NCBI GenBank assembly: GCA_016735355.1
Contig: JAERRQ010000173.1
Span: forward strand, 1-11,433
Length of the DNA: 11,433 bases
Source: Desulfobacterales bacterium
Lineage (GTDB): Bacteria; Desulfobacterota; Desulfobacteria; Desulfobacterales; BuS5
Direction of reading: 5' to 3'
Positions 2,344 through 11,326 of this stretch are shown here, piece after piece. Position 1 is the first letter of the stretch, and each line of letters starts with the position of its first letter. The notes below the pieces were generated by a model, which saw nothing but the letters and a program-made list of their open reading frames with translations, was not told the DNA's origin and searched no databases. A program made the translations under genes and the position numbers.

Positions 2344-2967
2344 ATGAATCCCTATCAGAAAGAACAATCAGAGGCCATTTCCATGGTCTGGAGACATCTT
2401 ATTGCTTTGGATACCGCAGCAATAGATGGTCTTAAAAATATGATTGCGGATTATCTACTATTTCGTAATAAAGTAAGCGAATTTCTTTCTGAACATTTCA
2501 GCGCCCTCTGTAATAGAAAATGTTATGAAAGCAAGCTCAGCGCATGTTGCTCTCGCGAAGGGATAATAATTTTTTTCGGCGATGTGGTCATTAATCTCAT
2601 TGAATCACAAGATTATGAAATTATGTCCATTCTTGCTACACTCGAACAGACCAACATGGGGTCAAAGTGTATATACCTTGGAAATAATGGATGTATTTGG
2701 CGTCTGAAACCGATTGTATGTGAGATGTTTTTATGTAAAACTGCCAAACAGGAAGTATTCAATGCCAATCCCCGCCTGGGTGAAATGTGGGATGAATTCA
2801 AAAGATGGGAAAAACTGTATAAATGGCCCGACAGGCCGGTGCTTTTTGATGATCTTGAAACTTATTTTATCAAAGCCGGTTTTTCATCAACATTAATGTA
2901 TCTACACAATAATCCCGGTCTTTTGAATGTTAAGAGGAAGTCTCAAATCTTGAAAAAATATGAGTAA
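2344..2967 (+). CDS. YkgJ-like cysteine-cluster protein
   Basis: This is a soluble protein of about 207 residues, rich in ordered cysteines. Counting from a TTG at 2332 (four residues further upstream), cysteines are at 60, 64, 72, 73, 113, 121, 130 and 135. They form C-x3-C-x7-CC, then KCIYLGNNGC, then RLKPIVCEMFLC. This spacing resembles the YkgJ family of putative zinc- or iron-chelating proteins, where a CC pair is followed by a 'C-x-DGRC-x-RPxxCR'-like segment, but it is divergent. I therefore claim the metal-binding cysteine cluster and not a biochemical reaction. The start is uncertain. The TTG at 2332 and the ATG at 2344 both lack a Shine-Dalgarno, whereas an ATG at 2383 has AGAGG about 9 bases upstream. 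An in-frame TGA at 2308 limits extension. The last 8 bases overlap the next gene, which suggests translational coupling. Confidence 0.65.
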   Translation: MNPYQKEQSEAISMVWRHLIALDTAAIDGLKNMIADYLLFRNKVSEFLSEHFSALCNRKCYESKLSACCSREGIIIFFGDVVINLIESQDYEIMSILATLEQTNMGSKCIYLGNNGCIWRLKPIVCEMFLCKTAKQEVFNANPRLGEMWDEFKRWEKLYKWPDRPVLFDDLETYFIKAGFSSTLMYLHNNPGLLNVKRKSQILKKYE

Positions 2968-3448
2968 GTTTATCGTAGGAGTTATGGGGCCTGGTGACAG
3001 GGCCCGGACAGAGGATGTTGCCGCTGCATACAAATTGGGACGCCTTATCGCCAAAGAAGAATGGGCGTTGCTTAGCGGAGGAAGAAATGCAGGGGTTATG
3101 GATGCGGCAAGCAGGGGAGCCAAGGAGGCCGGCGGTCTTACTATAGGCATAATGCCGGCACTCGATAAGGAATCAGTATCCCCTTCTGTCGAGATCCCCA
3201 TTTTTACAGGTATGGGGAGCGCGAGAAACAGCATTAATGTTTTAACGAGTGATGTGGTGATTGCATGCGGTATGGGTATCGGCACAGCGTCGGAAGTCGC
3301 CCTTGCGTTTAAAGCAGGCAAGCATGTGGTACTGCTTAATTCAACGGTAGAAAGCAAAAAGTTTTTCAAGAGTCTGGGATATGATGCATTGTATTTTGCA
3401 GATACACCAAAGGAGACAATCAGAATAATAAAAGAATTAAAAAAATAA
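2960..3448 (+). CDS. LOG-like Rossmann protein, TIGR00725 type
   Basis: This 162-residue protein resembles the TIGR00725 family, a group of small single-domain Rossmann-fold proteins related to LOG (cytokinin nucleotide phosphoribohydrolase), lysine-decarboxylase-like and SLOG nucleotide-binding domains. It starts with a beta strand and glycine turn (FIVGVMGPG, 4-12), followed by LLSGGRNAGVMDAA (37-50) and then GAKEAGG (53-59). The segment TGMGSARN (83-90) precedes ACGMGIGTASEVA (102-114). This last segment occupies the place of the classical PGGxGTxxE loop of LOG proteins: GIGT and the glutamate are kept, but the PGG is replaced. A role in binding or hydrolysing a nucleotide is likely for the fold, but the substrate is unknown. 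The ATG overlaps the end of the preceding cysteine-cluster gene by 8 bases, so the two may act together. An AT-rich stretch follows before the sigma-28 promoter. Confidence 0.8.
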   Translation: MSKFIVGVMGPGDRARTEDVAAAYKLGRLIAKEEWALLSGGRNAGVMDAASRGAKEAGGLTIGIMPALDKESVSPSVEIPIFTGMGSARNSINVLTSDVVIACGMGIGTASEVALAFKAGKHVVLLNSTVESKKFFKSLGYDALYFADTPKETIRIIKELKK

Positions 3449-3473
3449 AATATTCCGGCATCCTTTTTTATTC

Positions 3474-3500
3474 TAAAGTTTACGGCAAAACTGCCGATAA
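3474..3500 (+). promoter_or_regulatory. Sigma-28 (FliA) flagellar promoter
   Basis: TAAAGTTT at 3474-3481 is followed after exactly 11 bases by GCCGATAA at 3493-3500. Both elements match the enteric FliA consensus (TAAAGTTT-N11-GCCGATAA) at all 16 positions, with the right spacing. It lies 56 bases upstream of the preferred start of the FlgM-associated-like gene, and the predicted transcript would begin near 3507. Chance occurrence is very unlikely, and the product of the downstream gene agrees with flagellar class III control. Confidence 0.92.
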
Positions 3501-3556
3501 GTGCTTCAGGGAAAAATGGAATTATTAGTATGATATATAGTGCAGGGAAGAGGGCC

Positions 3557-3937
3557 ATGCATATACCTGGATATCAAATGCGGAATGTGTTAAACCTTTA
3601 CACTAGGCAGCTAAGGAATAACAAAAAATCCGCAAAGGAAAAACGGCACAACCGGGAAATGACTTTTGACCGTATCAGTATCTCGGCTGCGGGAAAACAG
3701 AAGGCGATCCTGGAAAGGATCACATCTGATATAATGAAAAAAATTTTTAATTTTAATTTTGATAAATATATGGAATGTAATGTGACAACTCAGCCTAAGG
3801 GAGCATTGAGCGGTAACGTTTCAGTTGAAAATAATGATAATAAAAAACTATTATTTCATACAATCGACAGCAATAATGTCAAATACAGAGAAACTCTTGA
3901 AATAAACGAATCAGACTTTCTGATTGAAGATGTATAA
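3557..3937 (+). CDS. Small FlgM-associated-like protein (DVU0524-type), sigma-28 controlled
   Basis: This 126-residue protein starts MHIPGYQMRNVLNLYTRQL. That opening resembles small Desulfobacterota proteins annotated as the DVU0524/FlgM-associated family, which typically begin with an IPxYQxxNVLxxYxxQL segment. A FlgM-like stretch follows, TFDRISISAAGKQKAILERI (36-55). After that come a helix ending DIMKKI and a polar C-terminal half with no membrane segment. The family function is not established to my knowledge; a role near the anti-sigma factor FlgM or in late flagellar assembly is inference. A consensus sigma-28 promoter upstream independently supports a flagellar role. An ATG at 3530 would add nine residues, but the one at 3557 is preferred: it has AGGGA 8 bases upstream and places the family-like MHIPGYQ at the N-terminus. 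A hairpin with a T-run follows the stop, so the gene looks monocistronic. Family assignment is from memory of sequence patterns. Confidence 0.68.
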   Translation: MHIPGYQMRNVLNLYTRQLRNNKKSAKEKRHNREMTFDRISISAAGKQKAILERITSDIMKKIFNFNFDKYMECNVTTQPKGALSGNVSVENNDNKKLLFHTIDSNNVKYRETLEINESDFLIEDV

Positions 3938-3945
3938 AAAGATAT

Positions 3946-3970
3946 CAAGCACAGGCTTGCTTTATTTTTT
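3946..3970 (+). terminator. Rho-independent-like terminator after the FlgM-associated gene
   Basis: CAAGC (3946-3950), loop ACAG and GCTTG (3955-3959) form a 5-bp stem, followed by C and TTTATTTTTT (3961-3970). The stem is short, so termination may be partial. It lies just after the stop codon at 3937 and would separate the sigma-28 unit from the signalling cassette. Confidence 0.6.
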
Positions 3971-4180
3971 GTGTTCCCCCTTTTTTTGCCCCGTTAAATA
4001 GAGCCTGAAAGAAAACTACCTGAAAAAACACTGTAAAACCTTTTCAAATCAGTCAAGATGGATTTTTTAACCATAGAAACATTTTTTATGAATGGGCAAT
4101 ATCTAAAATAATCTTTCATTATTGTGTATTTCTCCAGTTTTAATGATAAAAAAGAATCAGTTTAATTAGTGAGTTTAGTA

Positions 4181-5698
4181 ATGAAAAAAAAAATTCTTGT
4201 AGTTGATGATAATCGTGTACTGCTAAACTTTATTGACAGGATGCTGAGAAAGGAAGGGCATGAGGTGGCTATAGCAGGCGATGCTTTTGAGGCTCTGAAC
4301 ATCCTGACTGATTTTGTTCCTGATGTAATGTTTATAGATTTTATAATGCCCACAATTGATGGTGATAAGCTTTGCCAGATTGTTCGAAAAATGCGGCATA
4401 TGGATAATTGTTATATCGTCTTCATTACAGCAGCAGCTGCAGAGCTGGATTTTGACTATACAAAGGTAGGCGCGAATGCCTGCATTGCCAAAGGTTCTTT
4501 TGAATCTGTTGCCGGATATATCAAGGATGCAATCAGGGAGTCCGACATGCCGCATAGAAACAGCATTCCCAAAGCAATTATGGGTCTTGAGTCTATAAAT
4601 GCAAGGCAAATGACAAAGGAACTCCTTTCACGGCACCGCCATTTGCAAACGATTCTTGAAAGAATGGCTCAGGGAATTTTGGAGATTCAGTCCGATAAAG
4701 TCGTTTATGCAAATTCTGCCGCAGTTGCCCTTTTCGGGATGTCATATGAAGATATAATTGCATCATATCCACCTGATTTATTTGGAGAAAGTGTACGACC
4801 TGACATTGAAGCCACCATGAAGCCTGAAAACAGTTTGTCGGAGTTTGATAACCGTGATTTAAACACGGAACTGAACGGCCGGCAAGTATTAATCGAGTGT
4901 CTTCCCGTGGGAACAGAACCTACCGCAATTCTTCTGATCACTGATGTTACCCATAAAAAACGTCTTGAAACCAAATTTAATGAATTAAGAAGACTGGAAG
5001 CCATAGGGACTCTGGCAGGTGGGGTTGCCCATGATATAAATAATCTGCTTATGGGAATACAGGGCAACACTTCACTAATGCTGCTTGAAATAGAAAAAGA
5101 TACTATTCACTTTAATTTTGTTAAAAGTATTGAGAGATGTGTAAAAAAGGGCTCCAAGCTTACAAAAGAGCTCCTCGGTTTTGCCAGAGGTGGTAAATAT
5201 CTTGTTCGGCATATAGATTTAAACGGCCTTATAGAAAAGAATATATATATTTTTGATGATATAAACAGAATCATAAATCTCAATAAAGAGTATCAGGATG
5301 ACTTATGGGCCATAGAAGCCGATGAGAAACAGATAGAGCAAGTGCTGGTGACTATTTTTGTGAACGCATGCCAGGCAATTGGAACAAAAAGAGGAGAGAT
5401 CAGCATAAAAACAGAGAACATTTCCTTAACAAAAAATTTTACTGAACAATTTGAGGTTGAAGAGGGTGACTATGTAAAGCTGTCTTTGGCGGATAACGGC
5501 GTCGGCATAGATAATTCGGATAAAGATAGAATTTTCGAGCCATTTTTTACAACCAAAGAAATCGGCACCGGCACCGGCTTGGGACTTGCGGCTGTTTTTG
5601 GTATAATAAAAAATCATTATGGTATCATAAACTTTTCAAGTAAAAAAGATCAAGGTACTACTTTTAATATTTACTTGCCGTCGATTACTCAGCAGTAA
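4181..5698 (+). CDS. Soluble response-regulator/PAS/histidine kinase
   Basis: This 505-residue protein has no membrane segment. An N-terminal receiver domain (about 1-120) contains the acidic pair D9-D10, phospho-acceptor D53 in FIDFIMP, T83 and K104. A PAS-like region spans about 150-260, ending with ITDVTHKKRLE. The dimerisation/phospho-acceptor helix carries GGVAHDINNLL with His284. The ATPase domain has an N box (FVNACQAI, N395), DNGVGI (438-443), the F box IFEPFFTTK (451-459) and GTGTGLGLA (462-470). It should autophosphorylate His284 and is itself a phosphorylation target through D53, so it can take a middle position in a relay. The ATG at 4181 is preferred, giving the usual MKKKILVVDDN start, with a weak GTGAG upstream; a GTG at 4169 would add four residues. 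It heads a three-gene signalling cassette, after about 210 bases of AT-rich sequence in which I see no gene. Its signal is unknown. Confidence 0.92.
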   Translation: MKKKILVVDDNRVLLNFIDRMLRKEGHEVAIAGDAFEALNILTDFVPDVMFIDFIMPTIDGDKLCQIVRKMRHMDNCYIVFITAAAAELDFDYTKVGANACIAKGSFESVAGYIKDAIRESDMPHRNSIPKAIMGLESINARQMTKELLSRHRHLQTILERMAQGILEIQSDKVVYANSAAVALFGMSYEDIIASYPPDLFGESVRPDIEATMKPENSLSEFDNRDLNTELNGRQVLIECLPVGTEPTAILLITDVTHKKRLETKFNELRRLEAIGTLAGGVAHDINNLLMGIQGNTSLMLLEIEKDTIHFNFVKSIERCVKKGSKLTKELLGFARGGKYLVRHIDLNGLIEKNIYIFDDINRIINLNKEYQDDLWAIEADEKQIEQVLVTIFVNACQAIGTKRGEISIKTENISLTKNFTEQFEVEEGDYVKLSLADNGVGIDNSDKDRIFEPFFTTKEIGTGTGLGLAAVFGIIKNHYGIINFSSKKDQGTTFNIYLPSITQQ

Positions 5699-5716: not shown

Positions 5717-8317
5717 ATGACTAATAAAAGAAAGAAACATAATACAGATTTGATGGACCGTATGGTTTTTATAGGATGCGGGCTGGCAGCTATTTATTGG
5801 ATTCTTGAATCTTTGATGACTACCTTGCAGAATGAAGGGACATCATTTATAAACAATTTTATTGGGTATAGTGCTGATGAAATTTTTGCTCGCCTGCTGG
5901 TATTCTGTTTTTTCCTGATATTCGGTTCCCACGCTCAGTATACAATCAACCAGCGCAGAAAGCTTGACGAGGCTCTAGTGAAGAGCGAGGAAAAATATAG
6001 AACAATTATTGAGAACATTGAAGATGGTTATTATGAAGCTGATCTTGAAGGATTTTTTTCTTTTGTCAATGATTCCATGAGCAGGATTACAGGATATTCC
6101 AAAGAGAAGTTGAGGACTGCCGGTTTTAGGCTTTTTACGGATGATAATAATTTTATAAAACTGAATGATACTCTTAAAAACATATTACAAAATGCCATAG
6201 ATACTGCTTTAATAGATTTGACATTTATAAAACCTGAAGGAACGGAATATTTTGTTGAGGCATCAGTTCATTTAAAAAAAGATTCCCGAGGCAGAGTAAA
6301 AGAATTCAGAGGGCTGATACGGGATGTTACAAGACGCAGACAAACAGAAGCTTTAAAGCAGGAAAAAGCCACGGCAGAGGCGGCTAGCAGGGCAAAAAGC
6401 GAATTCCTTGCCAACATGAGCCATGAGATAAGAACACCGCTAAATTCAATAATAGGCCTCATTGAGTTAATGTCTGATTCAAATCTTGATGCTGAACAAA
6501 AAGAAGATCTGGATGTTGTGCTGTCTGCGGCCTATGCGCTTCTTTCCATAATTAATGATATACTAGATTTTTCAAAAATTGAAGCTGGAAGACTGGAACT
6601 TGAGAACATAGCTGTAAACCTCAGGAACATGATCGGAGATTCTTTAAAAATAATTGCAAAAAATGCCCATGAAAAAGGGCTTGAACTTGCCTACCGGGTG
6701 GCACCTGACGTTCCTGATTACATATTAGGAGATTCTGCCCGATTAAGGCAGGTACTTTTAAACCTGGCGGGTAATGCAGTAAAATTCACTGAAAAAGGGG
6801 AGGTTATAGTCTCGGTTGAAGCGTCAATGTTTACAGAGACTAAAGTTGATCTTGTTTTTTCTGTTATAGATACCGGGATAGGTATTGCCGAAGATAAACT
6901 GGATAAGGTATTCAGCCCCTTTGAACAGGCGGACAGCGGCACATCAAGGAAGTTTGGAGGCACAGGGCTCGGTCTGGCAGTATCTGCGCAGCTTGTGGAA
7001 TTGATGGGTGGAACAATCCGGCTGGAAAGCGCCCCCGGCAAAGGGAGCAGCTTTTATTTTAGCGTTTCTTTTGATGTGTCGACAGACGCAAAGCCGGTTT
7101 TGCAGTCTAATGATTTAAGCGGCGTCAGGGCCCTGGTAGTTGACGATAATGCTTCAAGCTGCAACATCATAAAGGAGATGCTGGAAAGCTGGAATATTTC
7201 CGCAAAAAGTTCATTATTAACTGGGGAAGCAAAAAAAATATTAATAGATGCCGCTAACCATGGTGAACCCTTTGATCTTGTGATAATCGATTTTGATTTG
7301 GTAAATTCTGAAAAAAGCAGTTTGCCGGAATGGATAAAAAAAGATGATATTGTTAGTGCAAACATAATCATTATGCTCACATCATCATGTCATCGTAACT
7401 GCAAAGATCTGCTCGACTCCTATGCAAAGTCCAGAGTCAACAAACCTGTAAGGCCCTCGGATCTGCTTGATGCGGTAATGATTGCTCTCGATTTAAAAAA
7501 GATCGAATTCGGAACGGAGAAAAAAGTTTTTTACCCCGATCCCCAGATTGGTCATGAGTTGTTACATTTTCTTGTTGCCGAAGATACCCCCTTTAATCAG
7601 AAGTTTATCCGCCGTCTTCTTGACCGTTGGGGTTTTAAAGCAGAGATAGTTGAAAACGGTTATGAAGTCCTGGAGGCTTTGAAAAAAAAGAGTTACGATC
7701 TTCTGCTGATGGATATTCAGATGCCGGAGATGGATGGACTGGAGGCTGCCAAGGCTGTCAGGAAGATGGAGAAAGAAAAAGGCGGACATATACCGATTAT
7801 TGCCATGACCGCACATACAATGAAGGGTGACCGTGAATTATGCATAGACGCTGGTATGGATGATTATGTGTCAAAGCCCATCTCTTCCGAAGTACTTTAT
7901 CAAGCAATACAATCACTTCTGCCGGGGAGGTTGTCTGAAACAAATCCATTTTACAAAAAAGCAGGAAAGGATGTTATCTTTGATAAAGAGAGATTTTTGG
8001 AAATATTTGATAACGACTGGAATTTTTTTAAGGAATCTGTAGATATGTTTCAGGCAGACTATCCTGATATGATCGTGGCTGTAAAAAATGCGGTAAAGGA
8101 AAGTAATTCCAATGCCCTTAGACGTTCGGCCCATGCGTTAAAAGGAATATTGGGCAATTTCCAGGCGGAATCAGCTGTAGAAGCAGCTTATCATCTTGAA
8201 AAAATGGGTACCAACGGAAACTTCTGCGAAGCAGAAAATAAATGCAGGCAACTTGAATACGTAGTAGATAAATTTTCAAAAGAACTGTCCGGGTTTGTTG
8301 AGGATATAAAGGTTTGA
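5717..8317 (+). CDS. Membrane hybrid histidine kinase (PAS-HisKA-HATPase-REC-REC-HPt)
   Basis: This 866-residue phosphorelay protein is a complete tripartite sensor of BarA-like domain order. Two hydrophobic segments (about 16-34 and 57-72) flank a short extracytoplasmic loop. A PAS domain covers about 90-205. The phospho-acceptor motif SHEIRTP has His236. The ATPase domain shows NLAGNAVKFT (349-358), DTGIGI (385-390), the F box VFSPFEQ and GGTGLGL (414-420). The first receiver (about 470-592) has D476/D477, the likely phospho-site D525 and K576, although the usual MP after the acceptor is replaced. The second (about 616-735) is canonical, with E622/D623, D666 in MDIQMP, T698 and K720. A C-terminal HPt domain has His806 in SAHALKG. 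Phosphate can thus pass His236 to Asp to His806 and on to a separate receiver. The start is 18 bases after the upstream kinase, with AAAGG ahead of the ATG, and the stop overlaps the HD-GYP gene. The sensed ligand is not apparent. Confidence 0.95.
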   Translation: MTNKRKKHNTDLMDRMVFIGCGLAAIYWILESLMTTLQNEGTSFINNFIGYSADEIFARLLVFCFFLIFGSHAQYTINQRRKLDEALVKSEEKYRTIIENIEDGYYEADLEGFFSFVNDSMSRITGYSKEKLRTAGFRLFTDDNNFIKLNDTLKNILQNAIDTALIDLTFIKPEGTEYFVEASVHLKKDSRGRVKEFRGLIRDVTRRRQTEALKQEKATAEAASRAKSEFLANMSHEIRTPLNSIIGLIELMSDSNLDAEQKEDLDVVLSAAYALLSIINDILDFSKIEAGRLELENIAVNLRNMIGDSLKIIAKNAHEKGLELAYRVAPDVPDYILGDSARLRQVLLNLAGNAVKFTEKGEVIVSVEASMFTETKVDLVFSVIDTGIGIAEDKLDKVFSPFEQADSGTSRKFGGTGLGLAVSAQLVELMGGTIRLESAPGKGSSFYFSVSFDVSTDAKPVLQSNDLSGVRALVVDDNASSCNIIKEMLESWNISAKSSLLTGEAKKILIDAANHGEPFDLVIIDFDLVNSEKSSLPEWIKKDDIVSANIIIMLTSSCHRNCKDLLDSYAKSRVNKPVRPSDLLDAVMIALDLKKIEFGTEKKVFYPDPQIGHELLHFLVAEDTPFNQKFIRRLLDRWGFKAEIVENGYEVLEALKKKSYDLLLMDIQMPEMDGLEAAKAVRKMEKEKGGHIPIIAMTAHTMKGDRELCIDAGMDDYVSKPISSEVLYQAIQSLLPGRLSETNPFYKKAGKDVIFDKERFLEIFDNDWNFFKESVDMFQADYPDMIVAVKNAVKESNSNALRRSAHALKGILGNFQAESAVEAAYHLEKMGTNGNFCEAENKCRQLEYVVDKFSKELSGFVEDIKV

Positions 8318-9359: not shown

Positions 9360-10541
9360 ATGGCAGGACCTTTAAAAGGCTTAAAAATAATAGATTTTTC
9401 AACTTTATTGCCAGGGCCTTATGCAACAATGGCGCTGGCAGATCTCGGGGCTGATGTTTTGCGTATTGTATCGGGTTCCAGACCTGATCTTACCGATTTT
9501 ATGCCTCCGATACTTCCCAATACAAAAATTTCAGCAAACGGAGCCTGGATGGGGCGTGGCAAACGTTCTGTCACTCTTAATCTTAAAGATAAAAGGGCGA
9601 TAAAAATAGTACATCAACTACTTGCCGATTACGATATCATTGTTGAGCAATTCCGGCCCGGTGTCATGGAAAGATTGGGATTAGGTTATTCCGATTTGAA
9701 AAAGGTTAACCCGGCAATTATATACGGTTCGCTCACAGGGTACGGTCAGACCGGCCCCTTGAGCAAGAAAGCCGGCCATGATATAAATTATATTTCCCGC
9801 TCAGGACTAATGAGCTATTCCGGTCGCAACGATACAGGACCAAGCCTGACAGGCATGCAGATAGCAGATGTAGCATCCGGTTCAAACAACATGATTATCG
9901 GTATTCTTTCTGCAGTCTACTACAGGAGCAATACCGGTAAGGGGCAGTATCTTGACATCTCCATGATGGATGGTGTCGTCGCCTTTAATGCTATGACAGG
10001 TGCGGCATTTCTCGCTGGTGGAGATGAACCCCTAAGAGAATCGGAATTTTTGAATGGCGGCTGTCTTTATGATTTTTATCAGACTGAAGATAATAAGTAT
10101 TTGAGTTTCGGAGGGCTGGAGCCCAAGTTTTTTTCAGCATTCTGCAAGGCAATCGGTTGCGATGATCTTATCGAAGGTGGAGTAAACCCTGAAGGACTAC
10201 AAGACATAAAGAAGAGGGTTCGAGAAATTATCAGGCAAAAGAGACTTGATGACTGGATGAAAATTTTTGATCAAGTCGATGCGTGCGTTGAGCCTGTTTT
10301 TACACTTGAAGAAGCTTTCCGCGATCCCCATATAATGGAACGCGGGCTGATTATAGACGTTGAAATTCCTGGAGGCGGCACTGTAAAACAGATTGCAAAC
10401 CCCATTAAGTTTTCCGAGACTCAGCCTGAGTATAACACCACCGGCCAACTGGCAGGTACACACACAAAAGATGTTTTGAAGTCACTTGGATATTCTGAAA
10501 ATGATGTGGAAGAATTTGAAAAGACAGGTCTTTTTTCTTAG
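9360..10541 (+). CDS. Class III CoA-transferase-fold protein, alpha-methylacyl-CoA racemase-like
   Basis: This 393-residue protein belongs to the CaiB/BaiF (class III CoA-transferase) family, with the typical start GLKIIDFSTLLPGPYATMALADLGADV and the region MGRGKRSVTLNLK. Residues matching the catalytic set of alpha-methylacyl-CoA racemase are present: His140 in AGHDINYI, Asp170 in QIADVASG, and Glu254 in GGLEPKFF. A racemase catalysing inversion at the carbon next to the thioester of branched acyl-CoAs is therefore at least as likely as a formyl- or succinyl-CoA transferase, which share the fold and the active-site Asp. A Shine-Dalgarno, AAAGGAG (9346-9352), sits 7 bases upstream of the ATG. 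The gene is 20 bases after the HD-GYP gene, without a visible terminator, so read-through from the signalling cassette is possible. The stop TAG overlaps the GTG start of the next gene by one base. The substrate cannot be deduced from the sequence. Confidence 0.85.
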   Translation: MAGPLKGLKIIDFSTLLPGPYATMALADLGADVLRIVSGSRPDLTDFMPPILPNTKISANGAWMGRGKRSVTLNLKDKRAIKIVHQLLADYDIIVEQFRPGVMERLGLGYSDLKKVNPAIIYGSLTGYGQTGPLSKKAGHDINYISRSGLMSYSGRNDTGPSLTGMQIADVASGSNNMIIGILSAVYYRSNTGKGQYLDISMMDGVVAFNAMTGAAFLAGGDEPLRESEFLNGGCLYDFYQTEDNKYLSFGGLEPKFFSAFCKAIGCDDLIEGGVNPEGLQDIKKRVREIIRQKRLDDWMKIFDQVDACVEPVFTLEEAFRDPHIMERGLIIDVEIPGGGTVKQIANPIKFSETQPEYNTTGQLAGTHTKDVLKSLGYSENDVEEFEKTGLFS

Positions 10542-11326
10542 TGCCTCAAAAAATTAAACGCCGATATTTTATCCTTACAATCACCGGGAGGTTATTTGGA
10601 AAGCTGACAGAAGCCGGCCGTGACCTGTTGCCTATAATCCTGGTCATCGTCGTTTTTCAGCTTGCCATACTTCGCCAGTCGTTTCCGGACCTCCTTGAGG
10701 TGCTTACGGGAACAGCCTTAGTGGTAATCGGCCTCATGCTGTTCGTACAGGGACTTGAAATGGGCCTGTTTCCGATCGGGGAGAACCTTGCCGTCGCCTT
10801 TGCACGAAAAGGGAGTCTGGTCTGGTTGCTGCTCTTTGGATTCGGCTTAGGATTTTCCACAACCGTGGCCGAGCCCGCCCTGATTGCCATAACCCAGGAA
10901 GCTGCAAAAGTGGCGGCTCAAGCGAACATTATCGAATCTGGCGACAACGCCAGGGCATCTTATGCTCTGGGCTTGCGCTTTACGGTGGCTGTGTCAGTGG
11001 GGCTGGCTATCGCGATTGGCATAATACGTATCCTGCGCGGCTGGCCTGTTCATTATCTGATTATCGCCGGCTACATGATTGTCGTTTTGATGACTTTAAT
11101 AGCCCCCAAGGAAATTGTGGGTATCGCCTATGACTCCGGAGGCGTCACCACGTCCACGATAACAGTGCCCCTTGTCACCGCTTTGGGGGTCGGCCTTGCT
11201 TCATCTATCCGGGGCCGTAACACCATGATGGACGGTATTGGCATGATTGCCTTTGCCTCACTGCTTCCTGTGATTTTTGTTTTGGGCTTTGGTATGATAG
11301 TATTCGGTGTTAAAGTAACATGGTAG
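10541..11326 (+). CDS. DUF1538 family membrane protein (first of a pair)
   Basis: This 261-residue hydrophobic protein resembles the DUF1538 family of integral membrane proteins, whose function is unknown to me but which are suspected to be transporters. Candidate membrane spans are at about 28-45, 56-75, 92-110, 145-163, 171-188, 205-222 and 234-256. Family-type signatures are LLPIILVIVVFQLAILRQ (29-46), TTVAEPALIAITQEA (107-121), and a glycine/threonine-rich segment, DSGGVTTSTITVP (198-210), probably a re-entrant or substrate-binding loop. The GTG at 10541 shares its G with the previous TAG stop and lacks a good Shine-Dalgarno, so coupling to the upstream gene is likely. The next gene begins immediately at 11327 and looks like a paralogue of its N-terminal part, as expected for paired DUF1538 genes. 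G+C is visibly higher than in the rest of the window, which may mean transfer or codon bias of an abundant membrane protein. Confidence 0.85.
   Translation: MPQKIKRRYFILTITGRLFGKLTEAGRDLLPIILVIVVFQLAILRQSFPDLLEVLTGTALVVIGLMLFVQGLEMGLFPIGENLAVAFARKGSLVWLLLFGFGLGFSTTVAEPALIAITQEAAKVAAQANIIESGDNARASYALGLRFTVAVSVGLAIAIGIIRILRGWPVHYLIIAGYMIVVLMTLIAPKEIVGIAYDSGGVTTSTITVPLVTALGVGLASSIRGRNTMMDGIGMIAFASLLPVIFVLGFGMIVFGVKVTW

Follow-up and report, generated by a model that had tools for sequence, protein, structure and literature searches.

The closest described counterparts of the site considered here are the enteric FliA (sigma-28) class 3 promoters, with which it has both octamers and the 11-nt spacer in common, and the E. 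coli tar-tap-cheRBYZ FliA site given in PMC4183435 is also a 16/16 match. Our site lies in an 11,433-nt stretch of a Desulfobacterales bacterium (contig JAERRQ010000173.1, assembly GCA_016735355.1; the whole stretch is called the window below), on the forward strand, where the -35 element TAAAGTTT (3474-3481, 8/8), the spacer ACGGCAAAACT (3482-3492, 11 nt) and the -10 element GCCGATAA (3493-3500, 8/8) together match the enteric FliA consensus at 16/16 positions. Letters, coordinates, spacing and strand are as the original prediction had them, and the predicted transcription start, 3507, placed from the usual distance between a -10 element and the start, is the same as well. The gene behind the site joins a family that is known, named and uncharacterised, the DVU0524 family; a literature search, with most subscription journals outside its scope, found no paper on DVU0524 or "FlgM-associated protein". 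In the reading that we prefer, and to which we give a probability of roughly 85%, 3474-3500 is a functional FliA promoter from which FliA, once released, would transcribe a one-gene late-flagellar unit for the DVU0524-family protein.

Given the base composition of the window, chance would supply 1.2e-5 exact matches there and 0.0023 in the whole 2.2-Mb assembly, which has two; no match arose in 200 dinucleotide-shuffled versions of the window. At one mismatch the assembly holds 2 matches against 0.11 expected, at two mismatches 7 against 2.3, and at three 51 against 30, and the whole-assembly total for 0-3 mismatches (34 forward and 28 reverse, 62) is barely above that of the reversed pattern (32 and 25, 57), so that the three-mismatch sites are mostly background and the closest matches alone are meaningful. 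The spacer and -10 element of the window site also form a 5-bp palindrome, CGGCA-AAAC-TGCCG, which is probably incidental; among the sites found before orthologues (below), a comparable 4-nt complement occurs at 4 of the 98 scoring ≥13, and at 8 of 121 scoring ≥11 against 2.8 expected. FliA-like sites of group f18 (L057, L075, L094, L096 and others) likewise have a GGCAA...TTGCC-like palindrome across the spacer and -10 element.

The source assembly (411 contigs, 83% complete) encodes FliA downstream of a ParA/MinD-like gene (C115:5142-5813; TIGR02479 228 bits, cut-off 189.6), with FlhA on the same contig, and by this gene content the source genome is flagellated. The second 16/16 site of the genome (G000:C181, L067:1419-1668) precedes a 61-aa YjfB_motility (PF14070) gene, a 14/16 site precedes a flagellin N-terminus that is cut by a contig end (G000:C224, L068:470-2347), and of the 15/16 sites one precedes a GGDEF response regulator and one an HDOD gene. 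The flagellin contig has a further 14/16 site on its opposite strand, ahead of a gene for a TPR protein. Neither FlgM, also sought in the window, nor FlaG was found in this 83%-complete assembly.

The gene behind the promoter (3557-3937, forward strand; 126 aa plus stop) matches NCBIfam NF041863, "DVU0524 family FlgM-associated protein", at 54.8 bits over residues 2-63 of 126 (cut-off 40), which bears out its earlier description as FlgM-associated-like, and Pfam profiles, including FlgM (PF04316) and FlaG (PF03646), gave no match to it. Among named relatives the nearest comes from Desulfosarcina sp. BuS5; that protein has 126 aa, is 90% identical and carries the same family name in UniRef. The same protein is encoded by a same-genus relative (G049), in which the FliA site, its spacer and its flanks are identical to those of the window and the likely ribosome-binding site AGGGAAGAGGG (3544-3554, forward strand) is unchanged. 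In the case of G049, site and gene are parted by an insertion with a net length of about 131 nt, which takes the place of the extra 5' stretch of the longer reading from 3530 and leaves no in-frame start codon 5' of the ATG equivalent to 3557, so the start behind AGGGAAGAGGG at 3557, with 56 nt between it and the end of the -10 element, is most likely the true one. A 135-aa open reading frame from 3530 was disfavoured on the same ground and by the recorded length of the orthologue, 126 aa. The insertion (L065), by which the gene start is set apart from an intact FliA site, is of a kind dispersed throughout the source genome as a short repeat with the core GACCGATAACGCRGTGAAATTATTTAT (53 copies at ≤2 mismatches, and none with the reversed pattern); inspected by eye, the sequence on either side of 20 copies points to a MITE-like element whose inverted ends lie around TATAGACNGTCA.

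A terminator-like hairpin with a T-rich tail follows the gene (3946-3959, forward strand; fold -8.9 kcal/mol, z -1.56, weak on its own; the region 3380-4200 has 3 hairpin-type sites against 0.5 expected) and would make the DVU0524 gene a one-gene transcript. Both flanking genes are non-flagellar by profile: the 5' neighbor (2960-3448) encodes a SLOG cluster4/TIGR00725 protein, whose position is kept in the same-genus relative, and the 3' neighbor a kinase with a receiver domain. With these neighbors and the hairpin, the gene is a lone one, as had been proposed. The downstream genes, from 4169, lie on the same strand, response-regulator domains are present in the first of them and in the gene at 8314, and a receiver-like protein is encoded downstream on the same strand at six other loci of the family (one example read), all of which would fit a promoter that serves signaling genes with DVU0524 as their leader only. 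The gap of 231 nt that holds the hairpin, and the fact that the gene most commonly found downstream in the family is flgM, nevertheless make this arrangement very improbable, and a one-gene unit is preferred. Farther along the window, 10541-11326 encodes a DUF1538 protein that resembles, at scores under the respective cut-offs, the Na,Li,K/H antiporter subunits UmpA/UmpB.

Absence of the motif before orthologues had been set beforehand as the result that would speak against the promoter, and the motif is present. For the 155 DVU0524-positive genomes of the order, scoring was by the best FliA-like match over 16 positions, with a spacer of 10-12, in the 150 nt 5' of the start. The places listed numbered 150, in 148 of the genomes; one genome's second copy was left unused, giving 149 loci, of which 145, the window's included and related genomes unthinned, could be scored, having a start codon and 300 nt of sequence before it. 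A site of ≥13/16 was found at 98 of the 145 loci, and the same loci gave 1 with the reversed pattern, 2 at -300 to -150 (the genus relative's true site being one), 2 on the minus strand and 1 in coding sequence. Named genomes, a set that overlaps the first, gave a site at 68 of 79 loci (80, less one without 150 nt upstream; reversed control 0), and the rest of the phylum at 24 of 27 (30, less three of the same order; control 0). Such recurrence at the same place, together with the small expectation for an exact match, renders a chance resemblance without any role extremely improbable, even though a single genome site was given and this genome has barely more matches at 0-3 mismatches than the reversed pattern gives. 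For most sites scoring ≥12 (87 of 112), 19-23 nt lie between the end of the site and the start codon, and at least one site occurs in 27 of 41 family-level groups.

Sites also go with FliA, being present, in counts unweighted for kinship, at 92 of 119 loci from FliA-positive genomes versus 6 of 26 from FliA-negative ones. Taken with the family match and the FliA gene of the source genome, the sites before orthologues and their association with FliA leave the assignment to the late flagellar regulon well supported at the level of comparative sequence. Points counted against the best explanation include group f46, in which FliA is present in 5 of 6 genomes and the site in 0 of 6; the 27 loci, out of 119 with FliA in the genome, at which the best site falls below 13/16, one being the genus relative with its 16/16 site beyond the 150-nt window; the repeat insertion between promoter and start codon in G049; and, from elsewhere in this account, the failure to find FlgM and FlaG in the assembly, the carriers of DVU0524 that lack FliA, the 39 FliA-positive genomes that lack the family, and the weakness of the FlgM and FlaG likenesses. 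The further suggestion, that an exact consensus is remarkable at such a distance from Enterobacteria, was not supported, as 36 of the 145 same-order loci (the window's included) have sites of 15 or 16/16, the source genome has a second 16/16 site, and 16/16 is also reached by 2 of the 27 loci from the rest of the phylum; the site thus appears genuine and less exceptional than first thought.

FlgM is encoded within 2 kb on the same strand at no fewer than 56 of the 150 listed places; all but one of these 56 have it downstream, at a distance of 509-884 nt, and the last has it upstream. Clustering of the neighboring proteins puts the downstream gene in the flgM group at 68 of 149 loci. For the phylum set of 27 loci, 13 next genes are flgM-like by a strict text pattern, and more of them by eye. 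Across the phylum, DVU0524 often stands directly 5' of flgM and follows a promoter of this type, so that the two proteins, DVU0524 and the anti-sigma factor FlgM, would be co-produced upon release of FliA. Where flgM is apart from DVU0524, it has a FliA-type site of its own in 23 of the 32 genes covered (a count without a control). One such case is G049, the relative of the window genus in which both genes are seen, where they are 1.6 Mb apart and each has its own FliA-type site (14/16 for flgM), so we take the window locus to be a separated member that kept its promoter. The term orphan suits the gene in this genus and leaves out of view that a promoter-DVU0524-flgM unit is common in the family. 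The window gene has no flgM beside it, with FlgM not found in the assembly and 1.6 Mb off in the genus relative, and this does not lower its membership of NF041863 by profile, because many members by profile are likewise apart from flgM.

A position outside any flagellar cluster, which had been singled out, is correct for the window, though it is not distinctive: the two large clusters of upstream genes among the 149 loci are aldolase-like (40) and NUDIX (38), so that a non-flagellar address is common in the family (the aldolase, NUDIX, flgM and receiver labels are each read from one example). At L132 and 29 other loci (30 of 149), the downstream gene falls in one small-protein cluster, the example of which ends in VVYEKYDKNGDLIFRVPPSYKPVDERA and has no Pfam match. 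Six loci (L319, L320, L323, L326, L327 and L336) encode family members of 75-80 aa with little past the N-terminal domain, and most of their next genes are flgM-like by eye.

Among 291 genomes of the order, the DVU0524 family occurs in 155, FlgM in 161 and FliA (at 1e-40) in 162. DVU0524 and FliA occur together in 123, DVU0524 alone in 32, FliA alone in 39 (of the 162 with FliA) and neither in 97, an odds ratio of 9.6 that is unweighted for kinship, and 126 of the 155 DVU0524-positive genomes also have FlgM. The 32 are FliA-less in the sense of having no match at 1e-40, by which a very divergent FliA could be missed; 30 of them are also without FlhA. Because 32 of 155 carriers lack FliA and 30 of those lack FlhA, the protein, as far as gene content can tell, cannot act only through FliA. 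The genomes without FliA, FlgM and FlhA number 26 of the 155, several being >95% complete, and 11 of the 26 have matches over the family cut-off. Pairwise dN/dS in two FliA-less groups and two further pairs is 0.18-0.52, a rough range in which many synonymous distances exceed 1, and the values for comparison are 0.52 in a flagellated pair and 0.36 in the window genus. With these ratios, the copies in FliA-less genomes do not look like decaying genes and appear to be kept under constraint. Examples of constrained DVU0524-like genes from genomes that lack both FliA and FlhA are those at L162, L164, L169, L170, L173, L176 and others, and at nine DVU0524 loci, six of them in FliA-less genomes, the convergent gene reads as hisF.

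Persistence in these genomes would reflect either a second task of the family or recent loss of the flagellum in the lineages concerned. The 26 of 32 FliA-less carriers that lack FlgM and FlhA too, and the constraint on the FliA-less copies, would accord with a main task that is non-flagellar, FliA control having been gained, or kept, in motile lineages only. Against that stand the odds ratio for co-occurrence with FliA, the frequent linkage to flgM, the roughness of the dN/dS ratios and the 17 of 32 FliA-less genomes whose DVU0524 matches are below the cut-off or unlisted, and we consider a mainly non-flagellar protein unlikely. Doubtful as well, if a little less so, is the idea of a composite family, with an N-terminal segment of FlgM type and a C-terminal module of FlaG type, that once shared a FliA-transcribed unit with flgM. 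In several lineages of the Desulfobacterales it would have survived the loss of the flagellum and be retained by purifying selection in genomes that lack FliA, FlgM and FlhA; if this were true, DVU0524 would have a cellular task of another kind.

The resemblances on which such a composite would rest come from alignment of family profiles. The family consensus runs from MqIPSYQIHNVLKVYSKQLSQ through a variable linker to DkI.ISaEGKRkAIIeKVAsdIVDRIT and a C-terminal end of FvFNvIDenN.KtT.TLSVEDS.FLikRLeeLA. Profile residues 1-59 align weakly to FlgM 1-62 (64% probability, score 29.7; best of 100 column shuffles 17.5), with 48% and 20% in smaller alignments against cluster-type and tandem-type flgM, respectively, and residues 93-130 align weakly to the FlaG C-terminal end (score 26.1; best of 100 shuffles 18.0), with 50-76% in smaller alignments. 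Among the matches listed (the best 25 of 50 Pfam families) for 52 family members, FlgM is absent, and FlaG is matched by one of the 52, at an unconvincing E of 0.06. An AlphaFold model of a relative (pLDDT 73.6, pTM 0.47) has helices at 5-31, 44-66 and 71-84, strands at 97-103 and 109-115, and a helix at 120-139; Foldseek and VIA-align found no clear structural match to this model. The FlgM-like N-terminal half and the FlaG-like C-terminal end are thus suggestive only.

The C-terminal region of FlgM binds sigma-28. In the flgM consensus, this region reads PDVREEKV...GTY...IA.KML, and the likeness to DVU0524 ends before it. The DVU0524 protein could still be imagined as a diverged FlgM that acts as a second anti-sigma-28 factor and, by binding FliA, puts its own promoter under feedback control, in keeping with a promoter type common to flgM and an N-terminal alignment above all 100 column shuffles; the missing sigma-binding region, the absence of FlgM from the Pfam matches listed, the presence of FlgM itself in most DVU0524-positive genomes and the persistence of DVU0524 where FliA is absent make this distinctly unlikely. 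We tentatively favor, at somewhat less than even odds, an accessory of the FlgM checkpoint that has the FlgM-like N-terminal segment without the C-terminal sigma-binding region, together with the FlaG-like hairpin and helix, and that, made alongside FlgM and perhaps exported with it, may be a late export substrate or an escort tuning FlgM/FliA.

The comparative evidence puts a named, uncharacterised family in the FliA regulon across much of the phylum, with its association with flgM as one arrangement of several. It raises the question of whether a protein made with FlgM alters FlgM export or FliA activity, and the survival of DVU0524 in apparently aflagellate genomes is an odd fact that calls for explanation. 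In comparison with known systems, FlgM (PF04316) is similar in that both genes have FliA-type sites and often stand in tandem, and in a faint likeness to the N-terminal half of DVU0524, which differs in having no FlgM-type C-terminal region and a different C-terminal module. The predicted C-terminal hairpin and helix of DVU0524 align to FlaG (PF03646) above all 100 shuffles, at 40% probability only. YjfB (PF14070) is likewise encoded by a small gene behind a 16/16 site in the source genome and belongs to a different protein family. With its NF041863 relatives, the window gene has in common the profile score and the promoter type, and it differs from them in lying away from flgM in this genus, in its short C-terminus and in a -10 element that ends 56 nt before the start rather than mostly 19-23 nt. 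Finally, in contrast to enteric FliA sites, those in Desulfobacterales have a spacer of 12 nt more commonly than one of 11 nt (57 versus 41 of 98 sites), and the window site is one with the enteric length.
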